Below are positions 9,612-32,969 of a stretch of DNA of 34,065 nucleotides, piece after piece (the stretch's first letter is position 1; each line of letters opens with the position of its first letter). A model generated the notes under the pieces. It had not been told where the DNA came from, ran no database searches, and was given only the letters and a program-made list of their open reading frames with translations. Source of the stretch: a virus; the IMG/VR virus record IMGVR_UViG_3300045482_000073, positions 1-34,065 of that record, one strand, 5' to 3'. Position numbers and translations under genes: made by a program.

Positions 9612-11114
9612 TTGCTGGACTGGTTGCGTCAACTGCTGCCGGCACGACTGCGCGGCCCTTCGCCGCAGGTCGTCCAGGCGCTGCGGTTGATCCGAGCCCG
9701 GTATGACGCGGCCGTCACGAACGATGAGAACCGCCGCCACTGGGCCAACGCCGACAATCTGTCCGCGAACGGGGCGAACAGTCCGCTGGTGAGGAGACTG
9801 CTACGGAACCGCTCCCGCTACGAAGTCGCCAACAACAGCTATGCGCGGGGAATCGTCCTCACGCTGGCGAACGATGTGATCGGCACCGGTCCGCGCTTGC
9901 AGATGCTGACGGACAATGCCGAGGCGAATCGGTTCATCGAACAGGAATGGATGACGTGGTCCAAAGCGGTCGGCCTGCCCGAAAAGCTGCGGACGCTGCG
10001 GATGGCCCGCGCCTCCGACGGCGAAGGGTTTTCGATTCTGACGAGTAACCCGAATCTCGCCACGACGGTGCAACTGGACGTGAAACTGGTCGAAGCCGAG
10101 CAGGTCGCCACGCCCGATCTGCGGATGGACCTGGCCAATGCCGTGGATGGCGTGGAGTTCGATTCTTATGGCAACCCGGTCGCCTACCACGTCCTCAAAA
10201 AACACCCTGGCGACACCTCTGGCAGCCTCTCGATTCAGTACGACCGAGTGCCTGCCGAGAACGTGATCCATTATTTTCGGCAGGACCGTGCCGGTCAGGC
10301 CCGCGGCATCCCTGACATCACTCCAGCCCTGCCGCTGTTCGCTCATCTGCGGCGGTACACGCTGGCGGTGATCACAGCCGCTGAGATCGCCGCACTTCCT
10401 GGCGGCGTCCTCTACACCGACGCCCCGGCGAATGGGGAAGCCGATGCGGTCGAGCCGATGGACCTGATCGAGCTCGAGCGGGGCATGCTCATGACCATGC
10501 CCGGCGGCTGGAAGATGAGCCAGATGGAGGCTCAGTTCCCGACGACCACCTACGGTGAGTTCAAGCGGGAAATCCTCAACGAGATCGCCCGCTGTCTGAA
10601 CATGCCGTTCGCGATCTCGGCCGGAAACTCCTCGGGCTACAACTACGCCTCGGGACGTCTGGATCACCAGATGTACTTCAAGGCGATCCGGGTCGAACAG
10701 GCCCATCTCGAAGCGGTCGTGCTCGATCGCATCCTCGCCGCCTGGCTCGCTGAAGCCGCGCTGGTGGAGAGCTATCTCCCGGACCAGGGCACGGCCCTGG
10801 ACCCGGCGCCTGCGCACGGCTCCGCCGAGCTTCGGCGATGGGACCACACCTGGTTCTTTGACGGGCACGAGCATGTCGACCCCCTCAAGGAGTCGAGCGC
10901 CCAGGCCCTGCGCCTCGCCAATCACACGACGACGTATGCCGACGAATACGCCCGGCGCGGTCTCGACTGGGAGACGCAGCTCCGCCAGCGCGCCAAAGAA
11001 CTCGCCCTGATGACCGAGCTCGGGCTGACTACGCCCCATGCCACGAACTCGAATTCACCCGACCACGAGGACTCTGATGCCGAACGCGACGCTCCGCCCC
11101 CGGAAGAAGATTGA
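9612..11114 (+). CDS. Phage portal protein (lambda gpB-like family)
   Basis: This 500-aa protein has the lambda-type portal features: an N-terminal RARYDAAVTNDENRRHW segment (about residues 28-44), a long helix-rich clip/stem region and a C-terminal segment containing the conserved NMPFAISAGNSSGYNYASGR stretch (about 330-350). Portals form the dodecameric DNA entry channel at one head vertex and bind terminase and connector proteins. TTG 9612 is chosen because GGAGAG (9598-9603) stands eight bases upstream and no better ATG exists. The 3' end overlaps the start of the protease-capsid gene by 38 bases, indicating coupled translation. Confidence 0.93.
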   Translation: MLDWLRQLLPARLRGPSPQVVQALRLIRARYDAAVTNDENRRHWANADNLSANGANSPLVRRLLRNRSRYEVANNSYARGIVLTLANDVIGTGPRLQMLTDNAEANRFIEQEWMTWSKAVGLPEKLRTLRMARASDGEGFSILTSNPNLATTVQLDVKLVEAEQVATPDLRMDLANAVDGVEFDSYGNPVAYHVLKKHPGDTSGSLSIQYDRVPAENVIHYFRQDRAGQARGIPDITPALPLFAHLRRYTLAVITAAEIAALPGGVLYTDAPANGEADAVEPMDLIELERGMLMTMPGGWKMSQMEAQFPTTTYGEFKREILNEIARCLNMPFAISAGNSSGYNYASGRLDHQMYFKAIRVEQAHLEAVVLDRILAAWLAEAALVESYLPDQGTALDPAPAHGSAELRRWDHTWFFDGHEHVDPLKESSAQALRLANHTTTYADEYARRGLDWETQLRQRAKELALMTELGLTTPHATNSNSPDHEDSDAERDAPPPEED

Positions 11115-13017
11115 CGCTCAGTCACCACCGACGCAGTTGCAGCTGACGGCTGCCGCACGGATCGATCTGGAAGCGGCGGCAGAGGGCTCATCGACCGCGC
11201 TCCCTCGGTTCCGCATGGTCGGTTACACGGGTGGACCGATGCGCGTGGCGGGCTGGAAGTATCCCGTGATCCTCGACCTGGCGGGGTTGTCGATCCCGTC
11301 CCAGTCCCGGCCAATTCGGTTCGGCCACGACCCGCTGGCCGGCGTCGGACACACGGACTCGATCCGCGTGGAACAGGGGCAGCTGGTGGCTGCGGGTGTG
11401 GTATCGCGCGACACGGCCGCCGCACGTGAAGTGGTGACCAGTTCCAAGAACGGGTTCCCGTGGCAGGCTTCGGTCGGGGCCAGCGTCGAAGAGTTCGAGT
11501 TCGTCAAGGAGCACCAGCAGGTGACGGTCAACGGCAAGCAGCACGCCGGTCCGGTCAACGTCGTCCGCAAGTCCACGCTCGGCGAGATCAGTTTCGTCGA
11601 TCTCGGGGCCGACGGGGCCACCAGCGCGAGCGTCGCCGCCAATCAAACGACGGACGGTGATGCGGATGTCAACGAGGAACCGGTGATGACTCCGACCGAA
11701 ACCGTTCAGTCCATCCGCGCCGCCGCGATCGCCGAAACCGAGCGGATCGCGGCGATCCGGCGCGTCTGCGGCGGGCGCCATCCCCAGATCGAAGCCCGTG
11801 CGCTCCAGGAGGGCTGGTCAGAGCAGCGGACCGAACTGCAGGTGCTCCGCGAGGACCGACCCGCTGCGTCAGCCATCCACAGCCGCGACGCCACGGTGAC
11901 GGCGCTGGTGCTGGAAGCGGCCTGCATGCTCGCCGGCAAGGCCCCCGACATCGAAGGACAGTATGACGAGCCGACGCTCGATGCGGCCGACCGCCGGTTC
12001 AAGGGAAGCATCAACTTCCAGGAACTGCTCCTCGAAGCCGCGTGGGCCAACGGGTACGACGGCCGTTCCTTCCGCGATCACCGCACCGTGCTGCGGTTCG
12101 CCTTCGGCCACGGGATCGCGGCGGCATCGACCACGATCGACATCGGCGGGATTCTCTCGAACGTCGCCAACAAGTTCCTGCTGGATGGTTTTTTCAGCGT
12201 CGAGCGGACCTGGCGAAATCTCTGCGCCATCCGCAACGTCAGCGACTTCAAGACGGTCACCAGCTACCGACTGATCGGCAAAGATCAGTACGAACTGGTC
12301 CAGCCGGGCGGGGAACTCAAGCACGGATCGCTGGGCCAGGAGACCTACTCGAACAAGGCCGACACGTACGGTCTAGTGCTGTCGATCGATCGCCGGGACA
12401 TCATCAACGATGACCTGGGGGCCATCACCACGGTCCCGCGCAAACTCGGTCGCGGCTCGGGTCTCAAGATCAACGACGTGTTCTGGACGGTGTTCCTGAA
12501 CAATGCGGCCTTCTTCGTCGCCGGCAACAAGAACTATCAGGCGGGGGCCGACACCGTCCTCAACATCGACGGTCTGACGAAAGCCGACGTCCTGTTCAAT
12601 GACCAGGTCGACTCCGATGGCAAGCCGAACGGCATCATGCCGGCGATCCTGCTGGTCCCCACGGCGCTGAATGCCATCGGCACGCAGCTCTACAAGTCGC
12701 TCGAAATCCGGGACACGACCGCCAACTCCAAGACGCCGGTCGGCAACCCGCACGTCGGTCGGTTCCGGGTCGAAGTCTCCCGTTACCTGGCCAACGCCCA
12801 ATACACGGGCAACTCCTCGAAGGCGTGGTATCTGCTCGCCGAACCGGTCGATCTGCCGGTGATCGAGGTCGCGTTCCTCAACGGCCAGGAGTCTCCCACG
12901 ATCGAAACCGCCGACGCCGACTTCAACCAGCTGGGGATCAAGATGCGGGGCTACCACGATTTCGGCTGTGCGATGCAAGATCCTCGCGGCGGGATCAAGA
13001 GTAAGGGGGAAGTCTGA
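11077..13017 (+). CDS. Fused prohead protease and major capsid protein
   Basis: This 646-aa protein has two parts. Residues about 20-190 resemble a herpesvirus-type/S78-like prohead protease, with a probable catalytic His in RFGHDPLAGVGH (about 80-92) and a probable nucleophile Ser in WQASVGAS (near 131). A helical linker (about 205-270) could act as scaffold. The remainder (about 300-646) looks like an HK97-fold major capsid protein of the Mu gpT-like type. Self-cleavage would free mature capsid subunits. ATG 11077 has GAGG six bases upstream; an in-frame ATG at 11038 lies further inside the portal gene. A possible internal ATG at 11686 precedes the linker and could give a protease-free capsid form. 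Confidence 0.88.
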   Translation: MPNATLRPRKKIDAQSPPTQLQLTAAARIDLEAAAEGSSTALPRFRMVGYTGGPMRVAGWKYPVILDLAGLSIPSQSRPIRFGHDPLAGVGHTDSIRVEQGQLVAAGVVSRDTAAAREVVTSSKNGFPWQASVGASVEEFEFVKEHQQVTVNGKQHAGPVNVVRKSTLGEISFVDLGADGATSASVAANQTTDGDADVNEEPVMTPTETVQSIRAAAIAETERIAAIRRVCGGRHPQIEARALQEGWSEQRTELQVLREDRPAASAIHSRDATVTALVLEAACMLAGKAPDIEGQYDEPTLDAADRRFKGSINFQELLLEAAWANGYDGRSFRDHRTVLRFAFGHGIAAASTTIDIGGILSNVANKFLLDGFFSVERTWRNLCAIRNVSDFKTVTSYRLIGKDQYELVQPGGELKHGSLGQETYSNKADTYGLVLSIDRRDIINDDLGAITTVPRKLGRGSGLKINDVFWTVFLNNAAFFVAGNKNYQAGADTVLNIDGLTKADVLFNDQVDSDGKPNGIMPAILLVPTALNAIGTQLYKSLEIRDTTANSKTPVGNPHVGRFRVEVSRYLANAQYTGNSSKAWYLLAEPVDLPVIEVAFLNGQESPTIETADADFNQLGIKMRGYHDFGCAMQDPRGGIKSKGEV

Positions 13018-13040: not shown

Positions 13041-13550
13041 GTGAACGAACCGCGGATGGAAGTGTGGCAGGACATTCCAGGTTTTCCATCGTATCAGGCC
13101 AGCACGAATGGCCAGATACGAAGTGCCAAGAGCGGCACCTGGAAACTCCTTCGCGTCACGGGACACCCAAAGACTGGTTATGTCGCGGTCAGTCTCCGGG
13201 TCAATGGGCGCTACATCACAAGGAGTGTGCATCGGCTGATCGCGTTGACGTTCATCGGTCCTTCCAATGGCTGTGATGTCAACCACATCAACGGCGACAA
13301 ACGCGACAATCGACTGGCCAACCTGGAGTACTTGACCCGAGGGGACAACCATCGACACGCCTACGCGACCTGTCTTCGTGCTCCAGTCGGAAAAAAGCTG
13401 ACCGACGAGCAAGTGCGATGCATCGCCGAGATGCGTGGTCAGGCCATTCAGACTGTGATTGCCCGACAATTTGGCGTCAGTCGCTCGACAATCGCATTCA
13501 TCCACAACCGCAAGCGTCATCAACGATTGCTGCAAACCCAGAGAGCTTAA
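13041..13550 (+). CDS. HNH homing endonuclease (NUMOD4-HNH-HTH)
   Basis: This 169-aa protein has a NUMOD4-like DNA-contact motif (EVWQDIPGFPSYQASTNGQI, about residues 7-26), an HNH nuclease core (HRLIALTFIG, then VNHINGDKRDNRLANLEYLT near 79-98) and a C-terminal helix-turn-helix (about 117-160, with ARQFGVSRSTI). Such free-standing enzymes cut intron- or gene-less alleles and spread by repair. It sits between the capsid gene and the decoration gene, 23 bases after one and three bases before the next, so it has inserted without breaking either. GTG 13041 is used; ATG 13056 is an in-frame alternative. Confidence 0.92.
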   Translation: MNEPRMEVWQDIPGFPSYQASTNGQIRSAKSGTWKLLRVTGHPKTGYVAVSLRVNGRYITRSVHRLIALTFIGPSNGCDVNHINGDKRDNRLANLEYLTRGDNHRHAYATCLRAPVGKKLTDEQVRCIAEMRGQAIQTVIARQFGVSRSTIAFIHNRKRHQRLLQTQRA

Positions 13551-14667: not shown

Positions 14668-15108
14668 ATGTCGTTCATCGGATTTCGGCTCGAGCAGGCC
14701 AAAGGCCTGTTCTTCGACCGCCAGAAAGTGCAGTCGGCGGTCAACCGGGCGCAGCGCCGCGTCTTCTCGAAGTTTGGCTCGTTTGTCCGGCAGGACGCCC
14801 AGCAGCGGATTCGCCGCCGCAAGCGGTCCTCGTCGCCGGGGGAATCCCCGACGAACCGGACCGGGCTGCTCAAGCGGCACATCTACTTTGTCTTCGATCC
14901 CGACCGCCGCTCGGTCGTGATCGGTCCCGTGCTGCTGAATCGCAGCACCGGCGCTCCCGCCACGCTCGAACACGGCGGCGAAACCACGATCGAGACCCGG
15001 CGTCGGCAATCGATCCGCGTCGAGATCGAAGCCCGGCCGTTCATGGGACCGGCGTTTCAGCAGGAGCTTCCCAAGTTGCCCGCCCTGTGGCGGGATTCTG
15101 TCACCTGA
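14668..15108 (+). CDS. HK97 gp10-like tail completion protein
   Basis: This 146-aa basic protein has an N-terminal helical part (VQSAVNRAQRRVFSKFGSFVRQDAQQRI), an Arg/Lys/Ser-rich loop (RRRKRSSSPGESPTNRTGLL), a beta region and a C-terminal RPFMGPAFQQELPKLPALW helix. The features 'RTGLLKRH' and 'ARPFMGPAF' are the usual landmarks of gp10-like or virion-morphogenesis proteins, which take part in joining or completing the tail. It begins three bases after the upstream stop. Confidence 0.7.
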   Translation: MSFIGFRLEQAKGLFFDRQKVQSAVNRAQRRVFSKFGSFVRQDAQQRIRRRKRSSSPGESPTNRTGLLKRHIYFVFDPDRRSVVIGPVLLNRSTGAPATLEHGGETTIETRRRQSIRVEIEARPFMGPAFQQELPKLPALWRDSVT

Positions 15109-15404
15109 AAGGAGCCGTCATCAGCACTGAACACGAAACTTCTGAACCGCCAATGCATGCCCTCGGGAGGAACGGCAACGGCTACGTCGTCATTCCCAAG
15201 TGGTTCGTGTCATTCCTGAGTTTCACTGTCTCGGTGGTGTTTGTCGGGGCCATTCTCTGGGCCTGGCAGATGTCGTCGGATGTCGCCTCGATCAAGGCCG
15301 AAGTCCGGGCGCAGAACGAACTCCGCTCCAAGGAACTGGAGGACATTCATCGCCGGCTGGCCCGCCATGACGAACTGCTCGATCGGCTGCGGGAGGGGCG
15401 ATGA
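15087..15404 (+). CDS. Small single-pass membrane protein
   Basis: The protein has one clear transmembrane segment (WFVSFLSFTVSVVFVGAILW) followed by a charged helix (SIKAEVRAQNELRSKELE to LDRLREGR) likely to form a coiled coil. It could be a holin- or spanin-like lysis factor or an anchor for the enzymes encoded next; this is inference. The start is uncertain. GTG 15087 gives 105 aa but lacks a ribosome site, and ATG 15153 gives 83 aa, also without one. The only strong box, GAAAGGAG (15107-15114), points to a GTC/ATC codon at 15117-15122. The stop overlaps the next ATG (ATGA). Confidence 0.65.
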   Translation: MAGFCHLKGAVISTEHETSEPPMHALGRNGNGYVVIPKWFVSFLSFTVSVVFVGAILWAWQMSSDVASIKAEVRAQNELRSKELEDIHRRLARHDELLDRLREGR

Positions 15405-16024
15405 CCGATTTCCCGTTCGAACCCCTCGATATCGCGGCCTGCTACGGCACCGGGGTCACGGCGAATGCGATCCGCTGGGGCACGGCCTCTCTGCTGGCCC
15501 CGCCGCGACTGCGAATCGGACCCTCACACGTCGCCGTGCTGTGCGAGTTCCACGGACGGCAGATCTGGGTGGAGTCGACGACCCTCTGTCCCCATCCCTG
15601 CGTGATCCTGGCCCGGCACATCAACGGCTGTCAGGCCCACTTGCCGGAAATTCGGATTCATGACTACGTCAGCGCCGGGGGACGCGTTGACCTCTATCGT
15701 CTCTCGCCCATCGAGAAGCTCTCCAGAAATGAGAGCGAACTGCTGACGCGAATTCTGGTGCGGCACTTCATCGGTCAGGAAGTGACCTACGACCTCGGTG
15801 GGGCGCTCCTGTCCGGAACGCGGCTCTTCAAGCGGACCCGACTGCTGCCGTCCGCTGATCTCAACGAATTGTTCTGTTCGGAACTCGTGGCCGCCGTCTG
15901 CATGCGGCTGGGGCGGATGAACCGCTCCAACCCAACCCGGTTCAACCCCGCCTGCTTGCTGCGGGAACTTGTCCGCCACGGGACGTTCCAGTTCCACCAC
16001 TCATTCACCAGGGAGACTCTTTGA
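15401..16024 (+). CDS. Permuted NlpC/P60-like (YiiX/DUF830 type) cysteine peptidase or amidase
   Basis: This 207-aa protein matches the circularly permuted NlpC/P60 pattern: an early catalytic His in GPSHVAVL (His43), an acidic residue in WVEST (Glu59), and a late nucleophile Cys in LFCSELVAA (Cys159). Enzymes of this fold cleave peptide or amide bonds, often in peptidoglycan or in lipids and small molecules. It could be the phage endolysin or a tail-associated cell-wall enzyme. No signal peptide is visible. The neighbouring single-pass membrane protein and the membrane protease-thioredoxin overlap it at both ends (ATGA, TTGA), so the three are translated together and may act together at the envelope. 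Confidence 0.8.
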   Translation: MTDFPFEPLDIAACYGTGVTANAIRWGTASLLAPPRLRIGPSHVAVLCEFHGRQIWVESTTLCPHPCVILARHINGCQAHLPEIRIHDYVSAGGRVDLYRLSPIEKLSRNESELLTRILVRHFIGQEVTYDLGGALLSGTRLFKRTRLLPSADLNELFCSELVAAVCMRLGRMNRSNPTRFNPACLLRELVRHGTFQFHHSFTRETL

Positions 16025-17532
16025 TCGACTTTCTCCTCACCGCGCTGTTCTTCGCCTACGGACTCTGTCTGCTGCTGGCAATCCTGATCCCGCTCTGGAA
16101 CCGGTTTCTCGTGATTCCGTTCGTGCTGGCGATCGCCAGCGCGGCCTCAGCCGGAGTCCCGGAGTCGGTGGTCCTGGTCGGCGACTGCTCCGGCGTCTGC
16201 GTCGATCCGACGGGACTCGTGCTGACCGTCAAGCACTGCGACCTGCCGCCGGTGACGGTGGTCCGATTCCAGGACCGGACGGTCAGCGCTCGGCGGGTCT
16301 ATGTGTGCCCCGAAACGGAAGGCCCGGTCGTCTTCGACTGCGATGGCGAGGGCTTTCCGTTCGCCCGACTGGCTCAGGCGATCCCGCCCAATGGCGAGAA
16401 GGTCTGGTCGGCCGGGTATCCCGATGCGGCGGGTCGTCGTGAGCTTCGCTGGGCGTCGGGGCCGATCCTGGGCGGCAGCCAGTTCCGGTATCGGGACGGA
16501 ACCTTCCGAGGGAACGTCGTCGCATTCTCGACCGGACCGGGCTGGAGCGGCGGGCCGCTCTTCAATCCGCAAGGCGAGGTCTGCGGACTGCTCAACAGCA
16601 GTGATGGCTGCACGAGTGTGTTCGTATCCTACGCGGCGACACAAGAGGCCTATGTCGCCTGCCGCAATCGCCCCGCCAAGAAACCGACGCTGTATGTGTT
16701 CGGCTCGGTCCACTGCGGACCCTGCCTGAGGTTCAAGCAGCATTACGCCGAGCGGACTGCGCTGCGCCAACGGCTTGATGCTCAGTTCACAGTCGTGTTC
16801 GTCGACATCGACGTCCATCCCGGCACGGCGGACCAATTCGGGATCAAGGAAGTCCCCGCGTTCGTCGTCCCTGGCGAACCAGCCATCACCGGCTACACCG
16901 AGCCGGATGTGCTGCTCGGCAAACTGGGCGTCGTCGAGGAGCCAGCAACGCAGGCCACGGTGCCGACACCGCCGCTGGCCACGCCCCTGACGGAGCCGGT
17001 CCGCGAACCGGAGCAAACACCAGCGCCGCCACCCGCGCAAACCGTTACGGTCGAGAAGCCGCCGCCGGTCGCACCAAGCGTCACGCCAGCGGTCGGGGAA
17101 CCGGACCGTTCGGTCGCTGACCGGCTTGATCGCCTGAGCGGCCTGGTCCAGACCGGCGTTTCGATTGCGACCTGGCTGGGTGTCGGCGGCCTCACGGGTG
17201 GGGCCGGAGGGCTGGTCCTCGGCGGATTGGCCCTCTGGCGCACGTTGCGGCGACGTCGAGAAGCAAAAGCCGCCAGAGATTCCCCGGTGATCGCCACTCC
17301 GTCGACGCCCCGCGCACCACCGGTGGTCACGGTCGATAGTCCCCCGCCGCCACAAGCGATCGTCCCGGAAACCCGCTTCGCTCCATATGAGCGGGACACA
17401 TTTGCCGAAGCGTTCGCTTGGGCCGAGACGGAATTGGTCCGCAAGTACCCCGGCGCGGTCTCGACGCTCGAGACCCTCAAGGGGCTGATCAACCAGTTCC
17501 TGTCGGCCAAGGGCCTGAAGCCTAAGCCGTAG
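16021..17532 (+). CDS. Membrane-anchored trypsin-like protease fused to a thioredoxin domain
   Basis: This 503-aa protein starts with two hydrophobic segments (about residues 4-24 and 29-45, the second possibly a signal). A trypsin-fold domain follows at about 48-215: catalytic His in LTVKHC (His72), likely Asp in VVFDCDGEG (106 or 108) and Ser in GPGWSGGPLF (Ser176). A thioredoxin domain (about 220-305) has the redox centre HCGPC (231-235) and the cis-Pro loop EVPAF (277-281). A Pro/Thr linker, another membrane segment (about 381-406) and a basic, Pro-rich tail with a final helix complete it. It probably acts outside the membrane on disulfide-containing proteins. The TTG start overlaps the previous stop. 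Such a fusion inside a phage late operon is unusual. Confidence 0.85.
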   Translation: MIDFLLTALFFAYGLCLLLAILIPLWNRFLVIPFVLAIASAASAGVPESVVLVGDCSGVCVDPTGLVLTVKHCDLPPVTVVRFQDRTVSARRVYVCPETEGPVVFDCDGEGFPFARLAQAIPPNGEKVWSAGYPDAAGRRELRWASGPILGGSQFRYRDGTFRGNVVAFSTGPGWSGGPLFNPQGEVCGLLNSSDGCTSVFVSYAATQEAYVACRNRPAKKPTLYVFGSVHCGPCLRFKQHYAERTALRQRLDAQFTVVFVDIDVHPGTADQFGIKEVPAFVVPGEPAITGYTEPDVLLGKLGVVEEPATQATVPTPPLATPLTEPVREPEQTPAPPPAQTVTVEKPPPVAPSVTPAVGEPDRSVADRLDRLSGLVQTGVSIATWLGVGGLTGGAGGLVLGGLALWRTLRRRREAKAARDSPVIATPSTPRAPPVVTVDSPPPPQAIVPETRFAPYERDTFAEAFAWAETELVRKYPGAVSTLETLKGLINQFLSAKGLKPKP

Positions 17533-17580: not shown

Positions 17581-18375
17581 ATGTCCGGAAACGACGCCTT
17601 CCTCTGGTACAACGTCGGTGATTGGGGCCGGTTCGGCCTCGCGATTCCCAACTTCTCCAACGACACCAAGTCGCAGAACGACACGATCCGCTATCTGACC
17701 GACGTGGTCGGGCGGAACCTGCAGGCGATCCTGTGGCATCCTGATGCCCGGCTGCGGACGCCCCCGTCGATCAACACGCTGACCCGCATCCACAAGCTCT
17801 GCACGCGGGCGCGGTCGATTCTCGCGTCGCGGGCGGTGCCGGCCAACATCCTCAACATGGAGACGGCCCACGCGCTCCCGGCTCCCGAGGAGTTCCTGGT
17901 CTACCCCACGCCCTACTTCATGGTGCGGAATCAGTGGCTCAAGCAGTACGCCGGGCTGATGCTGCTGGCGCTGACCGAAGCGATGCAGCACCAGGAAAAC
18001 GCCCGGCCGCTGGAGATTAGCGAGGCGTTCGCGGGACTGATCGGCCAGTATGTCCAGCGGGTCTACCGGCTCGTGGCCACGGAACTGTTCCGCGTGCCGC
18101 TCGCCGATGCCGCGAAACCGGACTTCGCGCTGACCGATGCGCAACTGGCGGCCTACAACCCGTCGGCCTGGTTCACGAGCACCGAGATGATCGACACCGT
18201 TGCTCCACTGGATGACTGGCCGACCGAGGACGACCTCGAAGTCCTGACCAACGGCATCCCGATCAGCCATCTGCCGGTCCTCGGCCGCTGGCCGTCGGGA
18301 CCGAGTGGCTCGGTCGGTTCCAGCCAGTCGAATGTTCCTGCGAGCGAATCGTTCGCACGAGCGCCTTCGGCTTAG
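17581..18375 (+). CDS. Conserved-looking tail-module protein, function unknown
   Basis: This 264-aa, mostly helical protein opens with NDAFLWYNVGDWGRFGL and has a central aromatic YPTPYFMVRNQWLKQYAG stretch. No family is recognised. Its place before the tail tube suggests a structural or assembly role. The last 30 or so residues are Gly/Ser/Ala-rich and look different from the body. They are encoded partly by a palindrome (18339-18357), and the TAG stop itself is the first three bases of an inverted-repeat arm, so insertion of that element may have reshaped the C-terminus. A GAAAG box precedes ATG 17581. Confidence 0.7.
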   Translation: MSGNDAFLWYNVGDWGRFGLAIPNFSNDTKSQNDTIRYLTDVVGRNLQAILWHPDARLRTPPSINTLTRIHKLCTRARSILASRAVPANILNMETAHALPAPEEFLVYPTPYFMVRNQWLKQYAGLMLLALTEAMQHQENARPLEISEAFAGLIGQYVQRVYRLVATELFRVPLADAAKPDFALTDAQLAAYNPSAWFTSTEMIDTVAPLDDWPTEDDLEVLTNGIPISHLPVLGRWPSGPSGSVGSSQSNVPASESFARAPSA

Positions 18376-18406: not shown

Positions 18407-18766
18407 TCACGCGCGGTCCCGCAACGAGCGGATGAGGCCGTTGAGTACCTTCGATGTCTCGATGGCGTGAGCCTCCAGCTTCTTGAACGCCTCGTCCGTC
18501 AGGTATCCGAGGCGGACTGCGATTGATGCCTGGTAGGCCAATTCCCGCGAGGAACCGTAGGCCATGTCCAGGAATCGCAGGTACTCCGCCTCGGATGCTC
18601 TCGCGGAGCCCTCGACGATGTTGGACGCAATCGACACCGAAGCACGTCGCATCTGGTTGGTCAGACCAAACTGTTCATGCGACGGAAACGATGTCGTGGA
18701 CCGGTAGGTCAACAGCACGAGTTGATCGGCCAGTTCGAACGCCCTGAGTTTCGTGTGATCTCGCAT
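18407..18766 (-). CDS. Four-helix-bundle protein (23S rRNA intervening-sequence protein family)
   Basis: This 119-aa leftward gene has the full family pattern: an opening helix with LRAFELADQLVLLTYR, the signature FGLTNQMRRASVSIASNIVEG (split here around residues 33-53), and the closing SSRELAYQASIAVRLGYL helix. Relatives are encoded in 23S rRNA intervening sequences and resemble the Avd accessory protein of diversity-generating retroelements; they form positively charged oligomeric bundles that bind nucleic acid (family knowledge). Its ribosome site AAGGAG (plus-strand 18774-18779) straddles the inner end of the right inverted arm. It is the only leftward gene in the tail module, which supports arrival by insertion. 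Confidence 0.9.
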   Translation of the reverse strand: MRDHTKLRAFELADQLVLLTYRSTTSFPSHEQFGLTNQMRRASVSIASNIVEGSARASEAEYLRFLDMAYGSSRELAYQASIAVRLGYLTDEAFKKLEAHAIETSKVLNGLIRSLRDRA

Positions 18767-23572: not shown

Positions 23573-25948
23573 ATGTCAGCACCCGTCGCCGAACTCCTCG
23601 CGGAATTGACGCGGCGCGGTGTGACCCTGGAACCGCGTGGTGACGCGCTGGCGTTCCATCCCCGCTCGAAAGTCACTGGCGAACTCCGGGACCGCCTGCA
23701 GCAACACAAGTGGGAAATTCTTGGTCTGTTGCGAGGTGAGGTCGCGGCATCGACTCCCCAGTTCGTTGCAGCCACGTCGGTGGCAGCGGCGATTGAGTAT
23801 TCGGTCGCCGTGCTGGAACCCCGGACCGAGACCTTTGAATCGGCGCTGTTGAGTCTGTTTGCGCAGCCCACGCCATCACGTGAGGTTCTTGTCTGCGGTC
23901 CTGTTTCGAAGGTGATCCGCAAGACGATCCGAACCTATGCGGGCCGCCATGTGCGGATCGCCTCCTCACCCGCAGAGGCTCGTTGTGATCACGTCGTGTT
24001 GCTCGATGGCCGGACGTTGCTCGGGCGAGACTGGATCGTGTCCGCCTGTGCGGCGCTCACCGATGGCGTGGGCGCCGTCTACAGCGACCATGAACTCCTG
24101 ACGACCGGCGGTCGCACGCAGTACCCCGATCAGGTCATGGGGGACGACCTCGCCCGATCCGGCTTGGAGGCCCCGACCCTGCTGGTCCGCCGCTCGGCGC
24201 TGGTTGAGGCTTGGCAGCCAGGCGATTCGCTCAGCGGGCTTTTGCGGAAGCTCTCTCGGAACGGCTGGCAGATCCGCAAGCACGCGGTGGCGGTGCTGTT
24301 TCGGGGCGGTGGCGACGCCAGTTACTTCGCTCGCCAGGAGTTGGCTCGCGAGACGATGACGCTGTTCATCCCGCTCGCCGGTCGTGAATCTCTGTGGCGC
24401 GAACTGCGGAGGTTCCTCGATCGACAGACGTGGCCGCATTCACAACTCCGGTTGATCCTGTGCGATACCAGCCAGGACGAGCAGTTCGCCCGTCTCGTCC
24501 GGGACTGGATCAGCCGGTCCGACTATCCCGATGTCCGGCATCTGCGGTTCGCGCCGGGAACGAAAGGGCTGGCCGATCTCCCCCGCGACCAGCAGATCGT
24601 CGCCGTCAATGAGGCGATGTGCCGCATCTACAACCAGCTGCGGCAGTGCCTGACGACCGATTACGTGTGGGTGCTCGAAGACGACGTCGTTCCGCCGGAC
24701 GATGTCCTCCCGCGACTGATGCAATCCTTCGACGAACACACGGCGTCGGTCTGTGCGCCCTATCGGTCGCGGTTCGACGGCTGGTATCTCGTCTGGTCCC
24801 GCGAGCGTCTCGGCGACAACGGCGTCCATCAGCTCACAAAGCCGCTCCCCGACAGTCCTCAGGTCCACGAGATTCGGGGGAGCGGGTTCGGTTGCGTCGT
24901 GCTCCGGGCGGAAGTGCTGCGCCAGCACATCTTTCATCTGCCCGGCCAGGATCGTTGGTACGACGTCCGGTTCTTCCGCGACCTGCCGGGCCGCTGGAAA
25001 CGCAAGGTTGATTGGTCCTGCGAATGTCGGCACCTGCACAACACGCCGCGTCCGGCCACCACGATCGCGAAACGAAATCTGCTGTATCACGTCACGCCGT
25101 TTGCCTCGAACGACATCTGGCTGCGGAACATCCGACAGTTGGTGAAGCGGATCGACCTGTTCAACGGTCGGCGAGTAATTGCAGTGGCGACGGGCGAGGG
25201 GCTGGCATCTCCTGATGAAGTCCGCGCCGCGTTCGGCTCCCACGAGATCAAGATCATCCCGCATCCGAACTCGCGTGAGTTGCGTGAGAACGCCACGTTC
25301 CTGAAGCTGATGGAACAAGTCGAGTCGACCGATCCCAACGAAGCCACGTTCTACGCCCATGCCAAGGGCGTCGCCAAGGACATCCATTGCTCGGGCGATC
25401 CACTGGGTTCACGGTATTGGCGGAACGCCATGTACCACGAACTCCTGGACGGCTGGGGTCGAATCGCGGAACTGCTCGAAGAGTACCCGGTCGTCGGCTC
25501 GCATCGCAGGCATCATCCGCACCACCCCACGATCTATCCGGATGGTCAGAGTTCGTCCGACTGGCATTTCGGAGGAACGTTCTTCTGGTTCCGAAACCGG
25601 GATGTGTTCGCGACCGATCGCTGGCGTGAGGTCTGGCAGCCGACCGGCTGGGGAGCGGAAGCATGGGTGGGCCGCATGTTCTCATTCGATCAGTCCGCCT
25701 GCGTCGCCTACGACGGCCTCGAAGACGCTTACAACCCCGACAGCTACTTCCCACAGATCGATGACGAGGTGCCCGCCGATGGACGTGACGCTGACGACGA
25801 TTCTGTATCAGCCCGATTGGTCCCGGACGGGACCGATCATCGAGCAGAACCTCGCCGCACTCGACGCCAGCGGACTCAGCGGCGAACTGCTGATCGTCGA
25901 CAACTCGCCGATGCCCACGGTTCCAGCATTGGAACTGGCGGCTCGTGA
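23573..25948 (+). CDS. Multi-domain glycosyltransferase with TubC_N-like docking domain
   Basis: This 791-aa protein has an N-terminal helix-hairpin-helix module (about residues 1-57, LLAELTRRGVTLEPRGDALA then ELRDRLQQHKWEILGLL) resembling the TubC_N docking domain of NRPS/PKS enzymes. Residues about 80-255 look like a degenerate GT2 domain. A second GT domain (about 258-560) has WPHSQ, LCDTSQDE and the metal-binding VLEDDVVPPDD (near 366-376). A third region has ATFYAHAKGV (near 595). It should move sugars from nucleotide donors to an unknown acceptor. It begins three bases after a tail gene. The last 57 or so residues are Arg-rich, overlap the next gene by 170 bases and look like read-through after loss of the original stop. 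Confidence 0.85.
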   Translation: MSAPVAELLAELTRRGVTLEPRGDALAFHPRSKVTGELRDRLQQHKWEILGLLRGEVAASTPQFVAATSVAAAIEYSVAVLEPRTETFESALLSLFAQPTPSREVLVCGPVSKVIRKTIRTYAGRHVRIASSPAEARCDHVVLLDGRTLLGRDWIVSACAALTDGVGAVYSDHELLTTGGRTQYPDQVMGDDLARSGLEAPTLLVRRSALVEAWQPGDSLSGLLRKLSRNGWQIRKHAVAVLFRGGGDASYFARQELARETMTLFIPLAGRESLWRELRRFLDRQTWPHSQLRLILCDTSQDEQFARLVRDWISRSDYPDVRHLRFAPGTKGLADLPRDQQIVAVNEAMCRIYNQLRQCLTTDYVWVLEDDVVPPDDVLPRLMQSFDEHTASVCAPYRSRFDGWYLVWSRERLGDNGVHQLTKPLPDSPQVHEIRGSGFGCVVLRAEVLRQHIFHLPGQDRWYDVRFFRDLPGRWKRKVDWSCECRHLHNTPRPATTIAKRNLLYHVTPFASNDIWLRNIRQLVKRIDLFNGRRVIAVATGEGLASPDEVRAAFGSHEIKIIPHPNSRELRENATFLKLMEQVESTDPNEATFYAHAKGVAKDIHCSGDPLGSRYWRNAMYHELLDGWGRIAELLEEYPVVGSHRRHHPHHPTIYPDGQSSSDWHFGGTFFWFRNRDVFATDRWREVWQPTGWGAEAWVGRMFSFDQSACVAYDGLEDAYNPDSYFPQIDDEVPADGRDADDDSVSARLVPDGTDHRAEPRRTRRQRTQRRTADRRQLADAHGSSIGTGGS

Positions 25949-26417
25949 TAACCGGGTTCGGTTGCTCTGGAACGATGGACACAACCTCTACATCGCGGGA
26001 GCATTGAACCGCGTCCTGGGCGTGGCCCAGAGTCCGAAACTGGTCTACTTCTGCGCATCGCACGGATTGGCTCGTGATCCGACTTGGCTCCAGGACATCC
26101 TGAGGCCGCTCGACGATCCGGCAATTGGAGCGGCGGGTTGCGTGCTGCCGTGCCAGTTCAGCGCCGTCGCGGCAGTCCCGGAAGACATCATCGATCCCCA
26201 GCATCACATCCAGGGAGGCGTCTGGTCGGCGCGGATGGAAGTGCTGCGACAGATCGGCTTCAGCCATCGGTTCCCTTTCGAGTTCTGCGATGTCGATCTC
26301 TCCCGTCGTCTGCTGGCAGCGGGATACCAACTCGCTTCCACCGCCACGATCGTCTCGGTCGCAAGCGGCATCATTCCTGACCCGGAGCGTTACAAATATG
26401 TCCACGACTACCGCTGA
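25779..26417 (+). CDS. GT2-family glycosyltransferase
   Basis: This 212-aa protein begins MDVTLTTILYQPDWSRTGPI and contains the GT2 signature GELLIVDNSPMPTVPAL, then NLYIAGALNRVLGVAQSPKL and FFCASHG-like sequence where DxD usually sits, a GGVWSARMEVLRQIGF acceptor loop and FEFCDVDLSRRLLAAGY near the end, the usual GT2 finale. It is a short single-domain transferase, likely cytoplasmic. ATG 25779 has GAGG nine bases upstream and lies well inside the 3' part of the preceding gene. The canonical DxD is not evident, so activity is not certain. Confidence 0.85.
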   Translation: MDVTLTTILYQPDWSRTGPIIEQNLAALDASGLSGELLIVDNSPMPTVPALELAARDNRVRLLWNDGHNLYIAGALNRVLGVAQSPKLVYFCASHGLARDPTWLQDILRPLDDPAIGAAGCVLPCQFSAVAAVPEDIIDPQHHIQGGVWSARMEVLRQIGFSHRFPFEFCDVDLSRRLLAAGYQLASTATIVSVASGIIPDPERYKYVHDYR

Positions 26418-27036
26418 CCCCAAAGCACCGGTCACGGGACGGTTCGAGCTCCCGTTCCGGCATCTGGTCCTCGACAACTGGGCGGAACCGGAACTCGTCC
26501 GGGCGGCTGAGATCGAATGGCCGAAGCCCGACTGGCCACACTGGCATCGCTACGACTGCGGCAAGCTGGCCACGAAAGACCCGCTCCGATTCCCATCGGC
26601 ATGCGCTGAACTAATCCGTCGCCTGCTCTGCCTTCGCGTTGGCGAACTGATGGGGCTGGAGGACACGTTCGGCGACTGGAATTGTCACGGGGCCGGGCTG
26701 CACACTTCACCACCGGGCGCGAATCTCGGTGTCCATCTCGACAGCGACCATCACCCGAATACCGGCTGGCAACGAGCCTGCAATGCAATCCTGTTCGTGA
26801 GTTCCAGTTGGCGACCCGACTGGGGCGGCGAACTGGAACTCTGGAATGCCGATGGCACCAAGTGCCTGAAGCGGATCGCTCCCCGGTTCAACCGGCTGGT
26901 TCTGTTCGAACCGAGCGACGTGGCGTTCCACGCTGTCGCCAGAAACGCCGGTCCTGAAACCCGGAAAACGCTGGCCACATTCTACTGGCGCGCAGCACTG
27001 ACCACCGGCATCCGTCCCCGCGCCCAGTTCTGTTGA
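26398..27036 (+). CDS. 2OG-Fe(II) dioxygenase (prolyl 4-hydroxylase-like)
   Basis: This 212-aa protein has the double-stranded beta-helix iron site: HxD in GVHLDSDHHP (His113, Asp115), distal His in DVAFHAVA (His178), and the 2-oxoglutarate-binding Arg in ETRKTLATFYW (Arg189). Such enzymes hydroxylate protein side chains, bases or sugars using 2-oxoglutarate and O2. Placed among glycosyltransferases, it may create hydroxyl groups that are then glycosylated, as in collagen-type or hypermodified-base pathways (inference). It overlaps the previous gene by 20 bases; GGAG stands ten bases before ATG 26398. Confidence 0.88.
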   Translation: MSTTTADPKAPVTGRFELPFRHLVLDNWAEPELVRAAEIEWPKPDWPHWHRYDCGKLATKDPLRFPSACAELIRRLLCLRVGELMGLEDTFGDWNCHGAGLHTSPPGANLGVHLDSDHHPNTGWQRACNAILFVSSSWRPDWGGELELWNADGTKCLKRIAPRFNRLVLFEPSDVAFHAVARNAGPETRKTLATFYWRAALTTGIRPRAQFC

Positions 27037-27044
27037 GGTGATCG

Positions 27045-27578
27045 ATGGATTTCACGAGCGACTGGCACAGCATGCATATCCCGTTCTGGCAGGAACATCT
27101 CGGTGAATTCGATGGCCGCCCCGTGCGCTGCCTGGAGATCGGCAGCCACGAAGGCCGCAGTGCCGTTTGGATCGCCCAGCATCTGCTGTCACATCCGTCG
27201 GCCTCGCTGACCTGTATCGACACCTGGCTCGATGCGGAAGCCGAACGCCGCTTCGATGCCAACATCGCCGAGACTGGGCGGGCATCCCAAGTCCGTAAAC
27301 TCAAGACGGACTCGTGGCGGGGACTGCTAAGCCAAGGGCCGGGGTTTGACCTGATCTACATCGACGGCAGCCACGAAGGCCGACAGGTCCTGGAAGATGC
27401 CATCCTGGCGTTCCGCGTCCTGAAACGTGGCGGGCAATTGATCTTCGATGACTACGAGAACGTACCGAATGACGTTCGACAGCCGCCCAAACCGGCGATC
27501 GATGCGTTTTTGCTGCTGTGGGGCGACCAGTTTACCGTCCTCCATCTGGAATCGCAGGTCATCGTTCGCAAATGTTGA
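27045..27578 (+). CDS. Class I SAM-dependent methyltransferase (Methyltransf_24-like)
   Basis: This 177-aa protein has a SAM-binding motif CLEIGSHEGRSAVW (about residues 29-42), the acidic ribose-binding residue in LTCIDTW, and LIYIDGSHEGRQVLEDA (about 103-119), typical of small methyltransferases found in glycan clusters, where they methylate sugars or small molecules. A GAGGTGA box precedes ATG 27045 by a few bases, and it begins eight bases after the dioxygenase stop. The substrate is unknown. A hairpin terminator follows its stop. Confidence 0.87.
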   Translation: MDFTSDWHSMHIPFWQEHLGEFDGRPVRCLEIGSHEGRSAVWIAQHLLSHPSASLTCIDTWLDAEAERRFDANIAETGRASQVRKLKTDSWRGLLSQGPGFDLIYIDGSHEGRQVLEDAILAFRVLKRGGQLIFDDYENVPNDVRQPPKPAIDAFLLLWGDQFTVLHLESQVIVRKC

Positions 27579-27606
27579 TTGCCTCTGAATCTGTTTCAAC
27601 CCGTTG

Positions 27607-27635
27607 AACCGCGATGGACTCGTGCCATCGCGGTT
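27607..27635 (+). terminator. Hairpin terminator-like stem (perfect 11 bp)
   Basis: AACCGCGATGG (27607-27617) and CCATCGCGGTT (27625-27635) form a perfect 11-bp stem with a 7-base loop, followed by T-rich TCGTTGTTCC. It lies between the methyltransferase stop and the next ATG, so it may partly terminate the late transcript inside the glycan block. Confidence 0.7.
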
Positions 27636-27656
27636 TCGTTGTTCCCGGAGTTCCGC

Positions 27657-30611
27657 ATGTCCACCACTCTTGAAGCCTTTCGCCAGCAGTTCGACGCCTT
27701 CGGCCCGTGGACGACACGATTTCGTTTGCGCGGCGAAGTGTTCGGAGGCGGTTATGAAGTCAGCGAAGACGATCCGCTCATGCGGATGTTCATCGAACAC
27801 ATCCCCTCGGCTCGCCGAGTTCTGGAACTCGGCTGCATGGAAGGGGGAAGAACATTCCCGCTTGCCCGCCGCGTTGGCCATGTCGTGGGACTAGATGCCC
27901 GGCGCGAGCATCTCCAGCGGGCCCGGTTCGTCGAGAAGGAACTGGGCGTCTCGAATGTGACATTCCTGGAGAGCGACCTCGAATCGGGTGACCTGGCGTC
28001 GCTTGGTTCATTCGATGCCGTGTTCAACGTCGGCTTGCTCTATCACCTGAACGATCCGGCCCGGTTGCTGCGACAATGTGCAGAGGTCGCCCCGGAAATG
28101 CTGCTCTGGACGCACGTCGTCGATGACGCGGACGCCGAACATCGTGGCTACCGCGGCAGGTTCGCCGGAGAGAATCCATCTGATCGAATCGGCGGACTGC
28201 GATCCAAATCATTCCGCCCCGAGCGGTCCGAACTGGTCCGCATGCTGGATGACTGCGGCTGGCGGGACTTGGAATGGCTCCAGGACGATGCATCCTCCAT
28301 GACGCTCTGGTGCCGGACGACGATCGGCCCGCGTCCAAAACGAACCGTGCAGCTGTTGCCCACGCTGGCGGTCATCATCACTGCCCACAATTACGGGCTG
28401 TACCTCGACGAATGCCTGCAAAGCGTCCTGAATCAGAGCCGCCGTCCGGATGAGATTCTCGTCGTCGATGACGCCTCGACCGACGATACGCCTGATGTCG
28501 TGGCCCGCTGGTCCGATCGGGGCGTGCGGTCTCTCCGCGTGGACCATCACGACCCCCGGCAATCGCGGTTATCGGGGCTCCAGGCGACGAGCGCCGAGTT
28601 CGTTTGTTTCCTCGACGCCGACGATCGCTTGGCCCCCGACTACCTGCGGGGCGGTCTGGCGGGTTTCGATCGCTACGACATTGGCATCGTCTATTCCGAC
28701 GTTGATTACTTCGGCGACTGGAACCGCTGTCACCAGGAGCCGGAAGAGATCACGCTGGCCGACATGGGGAAGCTGAACTATGTCCACAACGGCTCGATCG
28801 TCCGCCGCGAGGCGTTGGAGATGAGCCGGGCGCTGGAAGTGCCCTGCGATTCGCTCTGTTCCCACGAAGACTGGCTCGCCTGGCGGCGCATCCTCGAACA
28901 AGGTTGGAAGGCGAAGAAGCAACGGGGCATCTACGGTTATCGCCGGCACGAGGCCAACCGGACGAACTCGAAATACAAGACGGCAAACTACTTCAACCAG
29001 CGGGCAATGGAGACCGAGACCGTCACGCTGTTCGTGGCGTTGTCGGGTCGCACCGCCGTCTGGCCCCGGTTCCTGCAGTTTCTCGAGCAGCAGTCGTGGC
29101 CCCATTCACAGGTCAAGCTCTGGCTGCTCGACACCAGCCAGGACGAGCGTTTCGGTCGCCGCATCCGGCGCTGGATCAGCCAGTGCGACTATGCCGACGT
29201 GCGCTATCGCGCCGAAGCCGTGGCGACGCCCGGCCTGGCGGATGCCCCTCGCGACAACGGAGCCACTCTCGACGCGGTGCGGATGGCGGCGGCCAGGATT
29301 TACAACCGGCTGGCCCGTGAGGTCACTGGGCATTACGTCCTGACCGTCGAAGATGACGTCATCCCGCCGAATGACGTGATTGAACGATTGCTGCGTGGAT
29401 TCGACCACCAGGTCGCCTCCGTCGCCGCGCCGTATCCTTCCCGATTCCACAAAGGGTATGTCGCCTGGTCCACCGGGCGACAACTGATTGAAGAAGGGCC
29501 TGCTCCCGCCACGGAACCGAAGATTTCAGATTCCAGCGAGCCGAACCTGCGATTCGCTCAGGTGGAAGGTAATGGGTTTGGCTGCACGATGTTTCGCAGC
29601 GACGTGTTCCGCGAGGCGCTGTTCACCGCCCGCCAGCAGCCTTACGTCGATTTCGACCCAGCGTTCTATGAGCGGCTGAAATCGACGGGTTTGCAGGCCA
29701 AGCTCTGCTGGGATGCTGAGTGCCAGCATCTCGCCAACGATGAAGCCCAGATCATGCTGGCGGGGCATTGGCCCGAGGCTTGGGAGACTCTCGACCTGGC
29801 CGAATACCGCTCGAACATGCTCCACGGCCGCGAAGCGATGGAATGGATCGTCAAGACGCTGAATGGTTCCGAACCCGCCGCAATCTGGGGCCTATCCGAC
29901 GGCGACGTCGCCTGGTGGTGCTACGACGCATTGGCTCGGGAACTGAAGGAGGCGAGGAGGGCCGAGGGGGCAAACGCTCCGGACTACCTCCGCTGGCTTC
30001 GTTTCCTGGCCGACACGAGTGGCCTGCACCCCGAAGACCGGGACGAACTCTGGCCCCTGTTCGATCAGGCGTGCCGCAACACCCCGCACTGGCTGGTTCA
30101 ACACTGGTGGGAACCTGCCGAGCGATTCACACTGCAGGCGCTGAAAGCCCAAGGCGTGACGGTCGATGCGGAAGGATTCGGCTACGCTCGAAGCCGCAAA
30201 CAAAAGATCGACTGCAATGCTGTCTACCGGCTGATGGATGAGGGGTTGTGGTGGCCGATCCTGGCCAACAAACGCCTCGCCATCGTCAGTGGCCACGCCG
30301 ACGCATTCGCCGCCCGCCTGCTGGACTCGGACTTTGTCCGGGCCAGCGGCGGCGGCGAGATCACATGGAACATCGCGGCGAAGGTCACATGCCCGTCAGT
30401 CCATGAACCAAAGCACTCGCACTTACAGTGGATGCGAGACGATTTGCTCTCGTCACGATGGGATCTGCTGTTGTGCTCGGCAGGATCGCTGTCGACGATC
30501 CTTTGCAGCCAAGCGGCACATACAGGCCGACTGGCACTCGACGTGGGTGCGTTGGATCGACAACTTATCGAATGTTCCGCCAACGAATTGTTGACACCCA
30601 AGTTTTGCTGA
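27657..30611 (+). CDS. Four-part methyltransferase-glycosyltransferase protein (MTase, GT2, GT, GT-D)
   Basis: This 984-aa protein has an N-terminal SAM methyltransferase (VLELGCMEGGRTFPLA near residue 60), a GT2 domain (AVIITAHNYGLYLDECLQS near 238; VVDDAS; FLDADDR near 318), and a further GT-like domain (about 451-720) with WPHSQ, LLDTSQDE and TVEDDVIPPND near 562 that is paralogous to one in the 791-aa protein upstream. The C-terminal region (about 723-980) resembles the GT-D family: IWGLSDGDVAWWC, DLLLCSAGSLST and RLALDVGALD. It probably builds and methylates a multi-sugar chain. ATG 27657 has GGAG seven bases upstream; a TTG at 27579 would run through the terminator and is rejected. Confidence 0.87.
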   Translation: MSTTLEAFRQQFDAFGPWTTRFRLRGEVFGGGYEVSEDDPLMRMFIEHIPSARRVLELGCMEGGRTFPLARRVGHVVGLDARREHLQRARFVEKELGVSNVTFLESDLESGDLASLGSFDAVFNVGLLYHLNDPARLLRQCAEVAPEMLLWTHVVDDADAEHRGYRGRFAGENPSDRIGGLRSKSFRPERSELVRMLDDCGWRDLEWLQDDASSMTLWCRTTIGPRPKRTVQLLPTLAVIITAHNYGLYLDECLQSVLNQSRRPDEILVVDDASTDDTPDVVARWSDRGVRSLRVDHHDPRQSRLSGLQATSAEFVCFLDADDRLAPDYLRGGLAGFDRYDIGIVYSDVDYFGDWNRCHQEPEEITLADMGKLNYVHNGSIVRREALEMSRALEVPCDSLCSHEDWLAWRRILEQGWKAKKQRGIYGYRRHEANRTNSKYKTANYFNQRAMETETVTLFVALSGRTAVWPRFLQFLEQQSWPHSQVKLWLLDTSQDERFGRRIRRWISQCDYADVRYRAEAVATPGLADAPRDNGATLDAVRMAAARIYNRLAREVTGHYVLTVEDDVIPPNDVIERLLRGFDHQVASVAAPYPSRFHKGYVAWSTGRQLIEEGPAPATEPKISDSSEPNLRFAQVEGNGFGCTMFRSDVFREALFTARQQPYVDFDPAFYERLKSTGLQAKLCWDAECQHLANDEAQIMLAGHWPEAWETLDLAEYRSNMLHGREAMEWIVKTLNGSEPAAIWGLSDGDVAWWCYDALARELKEARRAEGANAPDYLRWLRFLADTSGLHPEDRDELWPLFDQACRNTPHWLVQHWWEPAERFTLQALKAQGVTVDAEGFGYARSRKQKIDCNAVYRLMDEGLWWPILANKRLAIVSGHADAFAARLLDSDFVRASGGGEITWNIAAKVTCPSVHEPKHSHLQWMRDDLLSSRWDLLLCSAGSLSTILCSQAAHTGRLALDVGALDRQLIECSANELLTPKFC

Positions 30612-30652
30612 GCCGCTTTTCTTTGATCACTTGACGCGATCCCGAATCACAT

Positions 30653-30698
30653 AGCCCAACGTGCCGGCGAACGCTGGTCCGTTGGGCTGTTTTGTTCT
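30653..30698 (+). terminator. Strong rho-independent terminator ending the late operon
   Basis: AGCCCAAC (30653-30660) pairs perfectly with GTTGGGCT (30681-30688), with a nested near-perfect inner stem (CCGGCG / CGCTGG), and is followed by the T-rich GTTTTGTTCT. It sits just before the last three-gene glycan set and probably ends transcription of the main late unit. Confidence 0.8.
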
Positions 30699-30707
30699 CA
30701 AAGAGAT

Positions 30708-32956: not shown

Positions 32957-32969
32957 AAGAGCATCGACA

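Follow-up and report, generated by a model that had tools for sequence, protein, structure and literature searches.

Phages of planctomycetes carry a previously undescribed gene pair, which encodes an exported membrane protein with a variable head and a constant partner protein of 264 residues, g264. In the window, that is, the complete 34,065-base IMG/VR virus record analyzed here, the membrane protein is a polypeptide of 503 residues that joins a trypsin-like protease to a thioredoxin domain (Table 1). These enzyme domains belong to known superfamilies; what is new is the two-gene module. Its constant core consists of the C-terminal tail of the membrane protein and g264, and was missed by an earlier note on this DNA; it is this core with its interchangeable heads that is the thing to study. 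As the protease lacks a strict His-Asp-Ser triad and g264 belongs to no known family, the module is filed here under no described system. Literature searches on the protease-thioredoxin architecture, on DUF2570 together with spanins, and on proteinaceous cystine walls found no paper that contained all of the combined terms.

Table 1. Features of the module and its immediate neighbors (positions in the window)
Feature	Position	Strand	Basis
105-aa single-pass membrane protein; C-terminal stretch coiled-coil-looking (by eye)	15087..15404	+	DUF2570, E 8.6e-4, below cut-off
Candidate permuted NlpC/P60-like cysteine hydrolase; His43 and Cys159 invariant	15401..16024	+	Alignment of 9 members
503-aa exported, membrane-anchored protease-thioredoxin protein	16021..17532	+	Pfam, AlphaFold2, dN/dS
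N-terminal hydrophobic export segment(s), residues 1-46	16021..16158	+	Hydropathy; AlphaFold2 helix 2-49
Trypsin_2 domain, residues 56-190; His72, Glu100 (acid position), Ser176	16186..16590	+	Pfam, Foldseek, VIA, alignments
Thioredoxin domain, residues 219-299; CGPC 232-235, Pro279	16675..16917	+	Pfam, alignment, AlphaFold2
Pro-rich linker, residues 306-375	16936..17145	+	Relaxed constraint, dN/dS 0.21-0.26
Gly-rich membrane segment followed by RRRR, residues 376-415	17146..17265	+	TM score, charge balance
Conserved cytosolic C-tail, residues 430-500: PETRFAPYERDTFAEAFAWAE motif and the helix after it	17308..17520	+	Alignment, tail profile
g264, 264-aa partner protein without a known family; more conserved than any other gene of the module	17581..18375	+	Alignments, scans

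Domain architecture and conservation of the membrane protein

The gene for the 503-aa protein begins with a TTG codon that is preceded by an AGGGAG ribosome-binding site, and its start shares 4 nt with the stop of the preceding gene. The N-terminal hydrophobic region ends in an AxA-like site, ASAASAG, which by eye reads as a signal-peptidase site, and the internal membrane segment spans approximately residues 382-415. This segment reaches a TM score of at least 1.2 in 37 of 39 members and K/R residues are more numerous after it than before it in 33 of 39; this membrane-segment and charge analysis gives a type I topology. Both the N-terminal and the internal membrane segments described in the earlier note are thus present by hydropathy and TM scoring. 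The structure prediction and domain search that it had proposed also bear out the two enzyme domains, both of which score above the curated Pfam cut-offs. In the AlphaFold2 model, built on an alignment of 19 sequences, the protease and thioredoxin regions are confident (pLDDT of about 90 and 87, respectively), the Pro-rich linker is disordered and the membrane segment forms a helix. Compared with three relatives, dN/dS is 0.07-0.085 in the protease, 0.08-0.11 in the thioredoxin domain, 0.21-0.26 in the linker, 0.02-0.04 in the membrane segment and 0.11-0.17 in the tail. These low region-wise values, together with the 17 full-length proteins of the window clade that possess both domains (the window's own counted), indicate that this is a real gene under purifying selection.

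The protease region is recovered by the Trypsin_2 profile (E 1.7e-13), and Foldseek searches with its model matched DegS, DegP, MarP and MamO, with the best E-value, 5e-10, to MarP. VIA gave Z-scores of 21-23 to DegS/DegP over residues ~42-217. All three methods point to a chymotrypsin-type double β-barrel fold, as the earlier note had supposed. The His/Asp/Ser triad that it described is present only in part: His72 and Ser176 occupy the expected positions, and instead of Asp there is a glutamate, Glu100, in all 17 members of the window clade. This residue is the likely acid of the triad, as a sister protein (L185) has Asp at the aligned position, whereas the nearby D106 is not kept, being Asn in L025 and Arg in L185. 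It is L185 on which this assignment depends, because alignment to more remote trypsins puts the Asp at Gly101, immediately after Glu100. Ser176 is identical in all 13 aligned relatives, and His72 is replaced in one relative (L005) by Asp, a codon one base away from His. Five cysteines (56, 60, 73, 107 and 188) are invariant in the thioredoxin-fused protease domains (A1). We considered whether cysteine enrichment, with 6-10 cysteines in 17 thioredoxin-fused domains against 0-6 in 14 others, proves that the protease is under redox control, and set it aside as only a lead, because the 17 fused domains constitute one clade. A separate oddity, seen in one contig (L031:1452-2996), is an in-frame stop between the signal peptide and the trypsin domain.

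The thioredoxin domain is detected by the Thioredoxin_2 profile (E 5.9e-8). Cys232, Cys235 and Pro279 are unchanged in all 13 aligned relatives, so that the CGPC center and cis-Pro loop noted previously are both upheld and, with the profile match, place the domain in the thioredoxin superfamily. Its fold is assigned from sequence profiles and the predicted secondary structure, as the matches of the fold search spanned residues 29-218.

Neighboring genes

In the product of the gene overlapping the start of the 503-aa protein, the conserved His precedes the Cys, an order which is consistent with a permuted NlpC/P60-like hydrolase. Pfam gave a weak match to Peptidase_C92 in 1 of 9 members of the family (E 0.066), and a comparison with the PDB gave none. 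The gene-neighborhood survey suggested in the earlier note placed an NlpC-like hydrolase gene upstream in 37 of 48 loci, whereas inspection of distant modules did not reveal the 105-aa membrane protein. The cassette originally envisaged is thus partly right, and its translational coupling to the NlpC/P60-like gene stands. No holin, endolysin, spanin or other lysis family was recognized in scans of the window and of a related record (G014), apart from the sub-threshold DUF2570 match. The idea that the thioredoxin activates the adjacent cysteine hydrolase was rejected as inconsistent with three loci (L033, L040 and L093) that possess a thioredoxin and have no NlpC match within 4.2 kb.

Several other features of the window deserve mention. 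The prohead protease and major capsid protein appear, by eye and by position, to be encoded by a single 659-aa ORF (11038-13017) with homologs in relatives. Between the capsid gene and a decoration-like gene lies an ORF (13041-13550) that by eye resembles an HNH homing endonuclease and has a counterpart only in L060 among the loci compared. Positions 23573-33848 form a glycan-decorating island that encodes family 2 and other glycosyltransferases, one of which carries a TubC_N docking domain, as well as a 2OG-Fe(II) oxygenase, methyltransferases and a sulfotransferase-like protein; a similar gene set recurs in G014.

g264 and its coupling to the C-terminal tail

g264 is encoded by the next gene downstream of the 503-aa protein and has no match in our searches of Pfam, PHROGs, NCBIfam, PDB, INPHARED or PLSDB; the best E-values were 0.41 in a profile search of the PDB and 0.03 in NCBIfam, the latter in 1 of 21 members. 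Its AlphaFold2 model is poor (mean pLDDT 58), and BFVD has no match at E <=0.001. Within the window clade g264 proteins are 81-90% identical, as against 49-81% for the 503-aa protein, and across members identity to the window copy ranges from 47 to 90%.

The best-conserved part of the 503-aa protein is its C-terminal tail, and the coupling of this tail to g264 is well supported. Among distinct g264 genes with at least 300 nt of upstream sequence, 59 of 61 directly follow a protein ending in this tail, a count that is partly self-fulfilling for the 29 proteins from which the tail profile was built. Both exceptions occur in one genome (G613): at L247 the upstream protein retains the protease and membrane segment and its tail is divergent, and at L228 a protease match lies upstream with no matched tail. 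In the set as it stood before the last loci were added, the tail was found without g264 only at two contig ends.

The strongest evidence that tail and g264 probably work as a pair comes from a natural recombinant pair, L093 and L094, of the same metagenome. From the thioredoxin through the membrane segment their DNA is 84% identical; the tails are then strongly different, the g264 proteins share only 108 of 263 residues, and 88% DNA identity resumes directly past the g264 stop. Tail and g264 have thus been exchanged en bloc between modules with like heads and flanks on both sides, which indicates that they move together. Since the two stay together in inheritance as well as in exchange, physical binding of the tail to g264 is most likely, a prediction drawn from sequence comparison.

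In two related isolate elements (L076, L077) the anchor protein upstream of g264 is frameshifted before the tail, which might reflect decay, sequencing error or a programmed shift. Between g264 and the tail-tube gene of the window there is a 119-aa ORF on the opposite strand (18407-18766, -), with a near copy close to g264 in L050; we take it to resemble the four-helix-bundle/S23 family.

Interchangeable heads

The head is far more variable than this core. Across the 55 loci with at least 1900 nt upstream of g264, the protease occurs alone in 30, protease and thioredoxin together in 18, the thioredoxin alone in five, and neither in two. The combination on which the earlier note had built its proposal is therefore not essential to the module. 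In a relative from another phage (L023), for example, the protease is absent and the thioredoxin, membrane segment, tail and g264 are kept. The two head-less members (L074, L194) retain the hydrophobic N-terminus, a Cys-containing segment, the membrane segment and the tail, suggesting that catalysis is not always needed. A g264 tree (35 rows, inferred by a quick method and with several long branches) implies at least four changes of head type. On this tree the fused form branches within the thioredoxin group, which suggests that the protease was added onto a thioredoxin form.

Various other ORFs are found beside the module. An α/β hydrolase-looking ORF lies upstream in L043 and L046 and downstream in L194, with weak Pfam support in L043 only; SNase-like ORFs (by eye) occur nearby in L023, L033, L040 and L046; and a DUF1353 gene lies upstream in L040. 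The record G014 contains a second, different phage module (L107:17798-18826) with its own secreted trypsin-like protein of 343 aa, which adjoins a DUF1353-like ORF and has neither tail nor g264. In a prophage of G219 (L058/L045) the module lies between two terminase-like copies, a degenerate one immediately upstream and an intact one downstream.

Phyletic distribution and accessory status

Scans for the 503-aa protein recovered 10 viral contigs and seven loci in Planctomycetota MAGs, in agreement with the phage and planctomycete origin initially proposed. The protease-thioredoxin architecture has no match in INPHARED and is not represented as one PHROG, which accords with the earlier remark that no standard virion or lysis protein has this make-up. 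A host origin of the fusion was considered and rejected: in 294 Planctomycetota genomes, among the matches listed, only two had one match spanning both domains, and both were the prophage module itself.

Wider scans with g264 yielded 34 viral loci plus further genome loci, and the module is spread over unrelated phages and prophages; in G039 and G305 the prophage copy is part of contigs longer than 6 Mb. It lies between the neck and tail-tube genes, near TerL, or ahead of a prohead-protease-like gene. Many isolate records with g264 are just 13-16 kb long and contain TerL and portal genes, which prompted a gene-transfer-agent interpretation. As a general interpretation it was dismissed on account of the sporadic occurrence of g264, which is present in five of 392 Planctomycetota genomes, three of 199 in one family and 23 of 386 in one order.

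Related planctomycete-type phages contain a parallel cassette (L119, L124, L152, L171; L150, L160, L183) at the same genomic site or nearby. Like the module, it combines a signal peptide, a trypsin or thioredoxin-like head (the latter by eye in L124, L152 and L171), a membrane segment and a short C-terminal tail; unlike the module, its tail is of an unrelated type (LLSDEQF..LL, by eye) and there is no g264. In L119, L124 and L152 it is preceded by a secreted ORF that by eye is papain-like; Pfam gave no confirmation of the papain-like and several of the thioredoxin-like assignments. The 105-aa gene, the NlpC-like gene and the protease-thioredoxin head are all retained at the sister locus L185, where the tail and g264 have no match.

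Functional implications

Nothing in our searches explains how phages exit from planctomycetes, a group in which many members are without conventional peptidoglycan genes. According to PMC8567305, planctomycete walls are largely protein, with Cys-rich YTV proteins, and most Planctomycetales lack peptidoglycan genes; on that account an exit enzyme might need to be a protease. PMC10945688 describes a planctomycete phage that is released without lysis.

Our favored reading, held tentatively and at somewhat below an even chance, is that the module is a late, membrane-anchored device for attacking the envelope, probably for exit, with swappable heads and a tail coupled to g264. In the window the head consists of an HtrA/trypsin-type protease and, after it, a CGPC thioredoxin; the N-terminal signal would send this head across the inner membrane. 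The Pro-rich linker and the single Gly-rich membrane segment would keep it anchored there, and the conserved tail of about 65 residues, back in the cytosol, would bind g264, which might cluster or time the membrane proteins. The head would be swapped between phages; the module would be made late, from the structural region and usually alongside an NlpC-like hydrolase, and would act on the host's own envelope, releasing progeny. The module is located inside the late gene region, among structural genes, and this site, the frequent NlpC-like neighbor, and the predicted export and anchoring of the protein leave envelope attack, as first suggested, the best reading.

A role in lysis might also seem indicated by the 23 ORFs scanned in the window-type part of G014, where Pfam recognized no other lysis enzyme. 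This argument is weak, however, as Pfam likewise reveals no lysis enzyme in G596, a relative that lacks the module, among the 25 families listed out of 31. Further points count against an exit function: with its tether in the inner membrane, an enzyme has no obvious route to an outer wall; two members have no enzyme head; and the acid position is Glu in the window clade and His72 is lost in L005.

The hosts provide another such point, in that the thioredoxin does not track those without peptidoglycan and was seen only in transpeptidase-positive ones. All six hosts of thioredoxin-bearing modules possess a peptidoglycan transpeptidase, as against four of the 22 hosts of protease-only or head-less modules; host kinship confounds this comparison, genome completeness is not given for it, and G717 (module cut off) and G648 are left out of it. 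Hosts without transpeptidase thus have protease-only or head-less modules. YTV wall proteins do not discriminate, since they were found in all nine hosts tested, transpeptidase-positive and -negative. With thioredoxins in only 23 of the 55 loci, these observations speak against the sequence of events in the earlier note, in which a disulfide-rich wall is first reduced and then cleaved. An apparent restriction of the type-1 NlpC gene to transpeptidase-positive hosts disappeared when 20 more hosts and a second NlpC-like profile were included, and NlpC-like genes were also found in transpeptidase-negative hosts. A more far-reaching version of the exit hypothesis, which we regard as unlikely, would see in the module a new exit system for cross-linked-protein walls, in which anchored proteases or disulfide reductases on a g264-organized inner-membrane platform, with heads matched to the host, replace the endolysin-holin-spanin set.

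A function in virion assembly or docking appears quite improbable. Here g264 would be capsid- or tail-associated, the tail would tether virions or assembly intermediates to the membrane, and the head would be secondary, in keeping with the strong conservation of g264, its position among structural genes and the existence of head-less members. Phages sharing those structural genes argue otherwise. A portal scan found 551 relatives, and among the best 80 of these 551, 41 possess both the neck and the tail-tube genes; g264 is missing from 40 of the 41, and the two genes adjoin (<300 nt apart) in 26. In L023, moreover, the cassette lies away from the neck and tail-tube genes, which then adjoin. 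Since the module is usually missing where these structural genes are present, it is not core virion machinery.

We give less credence to superinfection exclusion or phage-phage competition, whereby the anchored head would cleave or reduce incoming tail-tip or ejection proteins and head swapping would reflect an arms race. An exported, membrane-anchored enzyme with diverse heads, accessory in status and spread over unrelated phages and prophages, would fit such a role, but a conserved late cytosolic partner would not be expected, and the genes lie in the late structural region rather than in a lysogeny or early region.

Less probable again is a transmembrane sensor, whose head would read the periplasmic redox state or damage and signal through the Gly-rich segment to g264, for instance to time or inhibit lysis. 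This would account for a constant membrane segment, tail and g264 under an exchangeable outer domain, and for the Glu in place of Asp, the single loss of His and the five invariant cysteines of the thioredoxin-fused protease domain; yet Ser176 and the CxxC are invariant within the clade and both enzyme domains are under strong purifying selection, which points to catalysis. Very improbable, finally, is an HtrA/Dsb-like quality-control factor that folds or clears exported phage proteins late in infection: the protease fold is nearest to DegS, DegP and MarP and the thioredoxin has a CGPC center, but Pfam reported no PDZ domain, heads swap between unrelated chemistries, and the window has no obvious exported virion protein.

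The tail-plus-partner core with its swappable protease and thioredoxin heads makes planctomycete phage exit directly testable. The module would also represent a natural platform for enzyme display at the periplasmic face of the inner membrane.

Comparison with known systems

Phage lysis cassettes, with their endolysin, holin and spanins, are sets of overlapping late genes that encode a wall hydrolase and membrane proteins. The window resembles them in its overlapping, probably late genes for a candidate wall-hydrolase-like enzyme and membrane proteins; it differs in having no recognized holin or spanin family, in its protease and thioredoxin heads, and in a partner, g264, of no known family. 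With membrane-anchored periplasmic HtrA/S1-type proteases, such as DegS and MarP/Rv3671c, the 503-aa protein shares the protease fold, the membrane anchor and the periplasmic side. Unlike these, it is a phage gene product in which no PDZ domain was found, with its anchor C-terminal to the enzyme, a glutamate where the triad acid is expected, a fused thioredoxin and a dedicated cytosolic partner. Membrane-tethered periplasmic thioredoxins of the TlpA/CcmG/ResA type likewise have a CxxC thioredoxin domain on the periplasmic side of the inner membrane, as is predicted for the window protein. The latter differs from them in being phage-encoded, tethered at its C-terminal side, fused to a protease and equipped with a conserved cytosolic tail.
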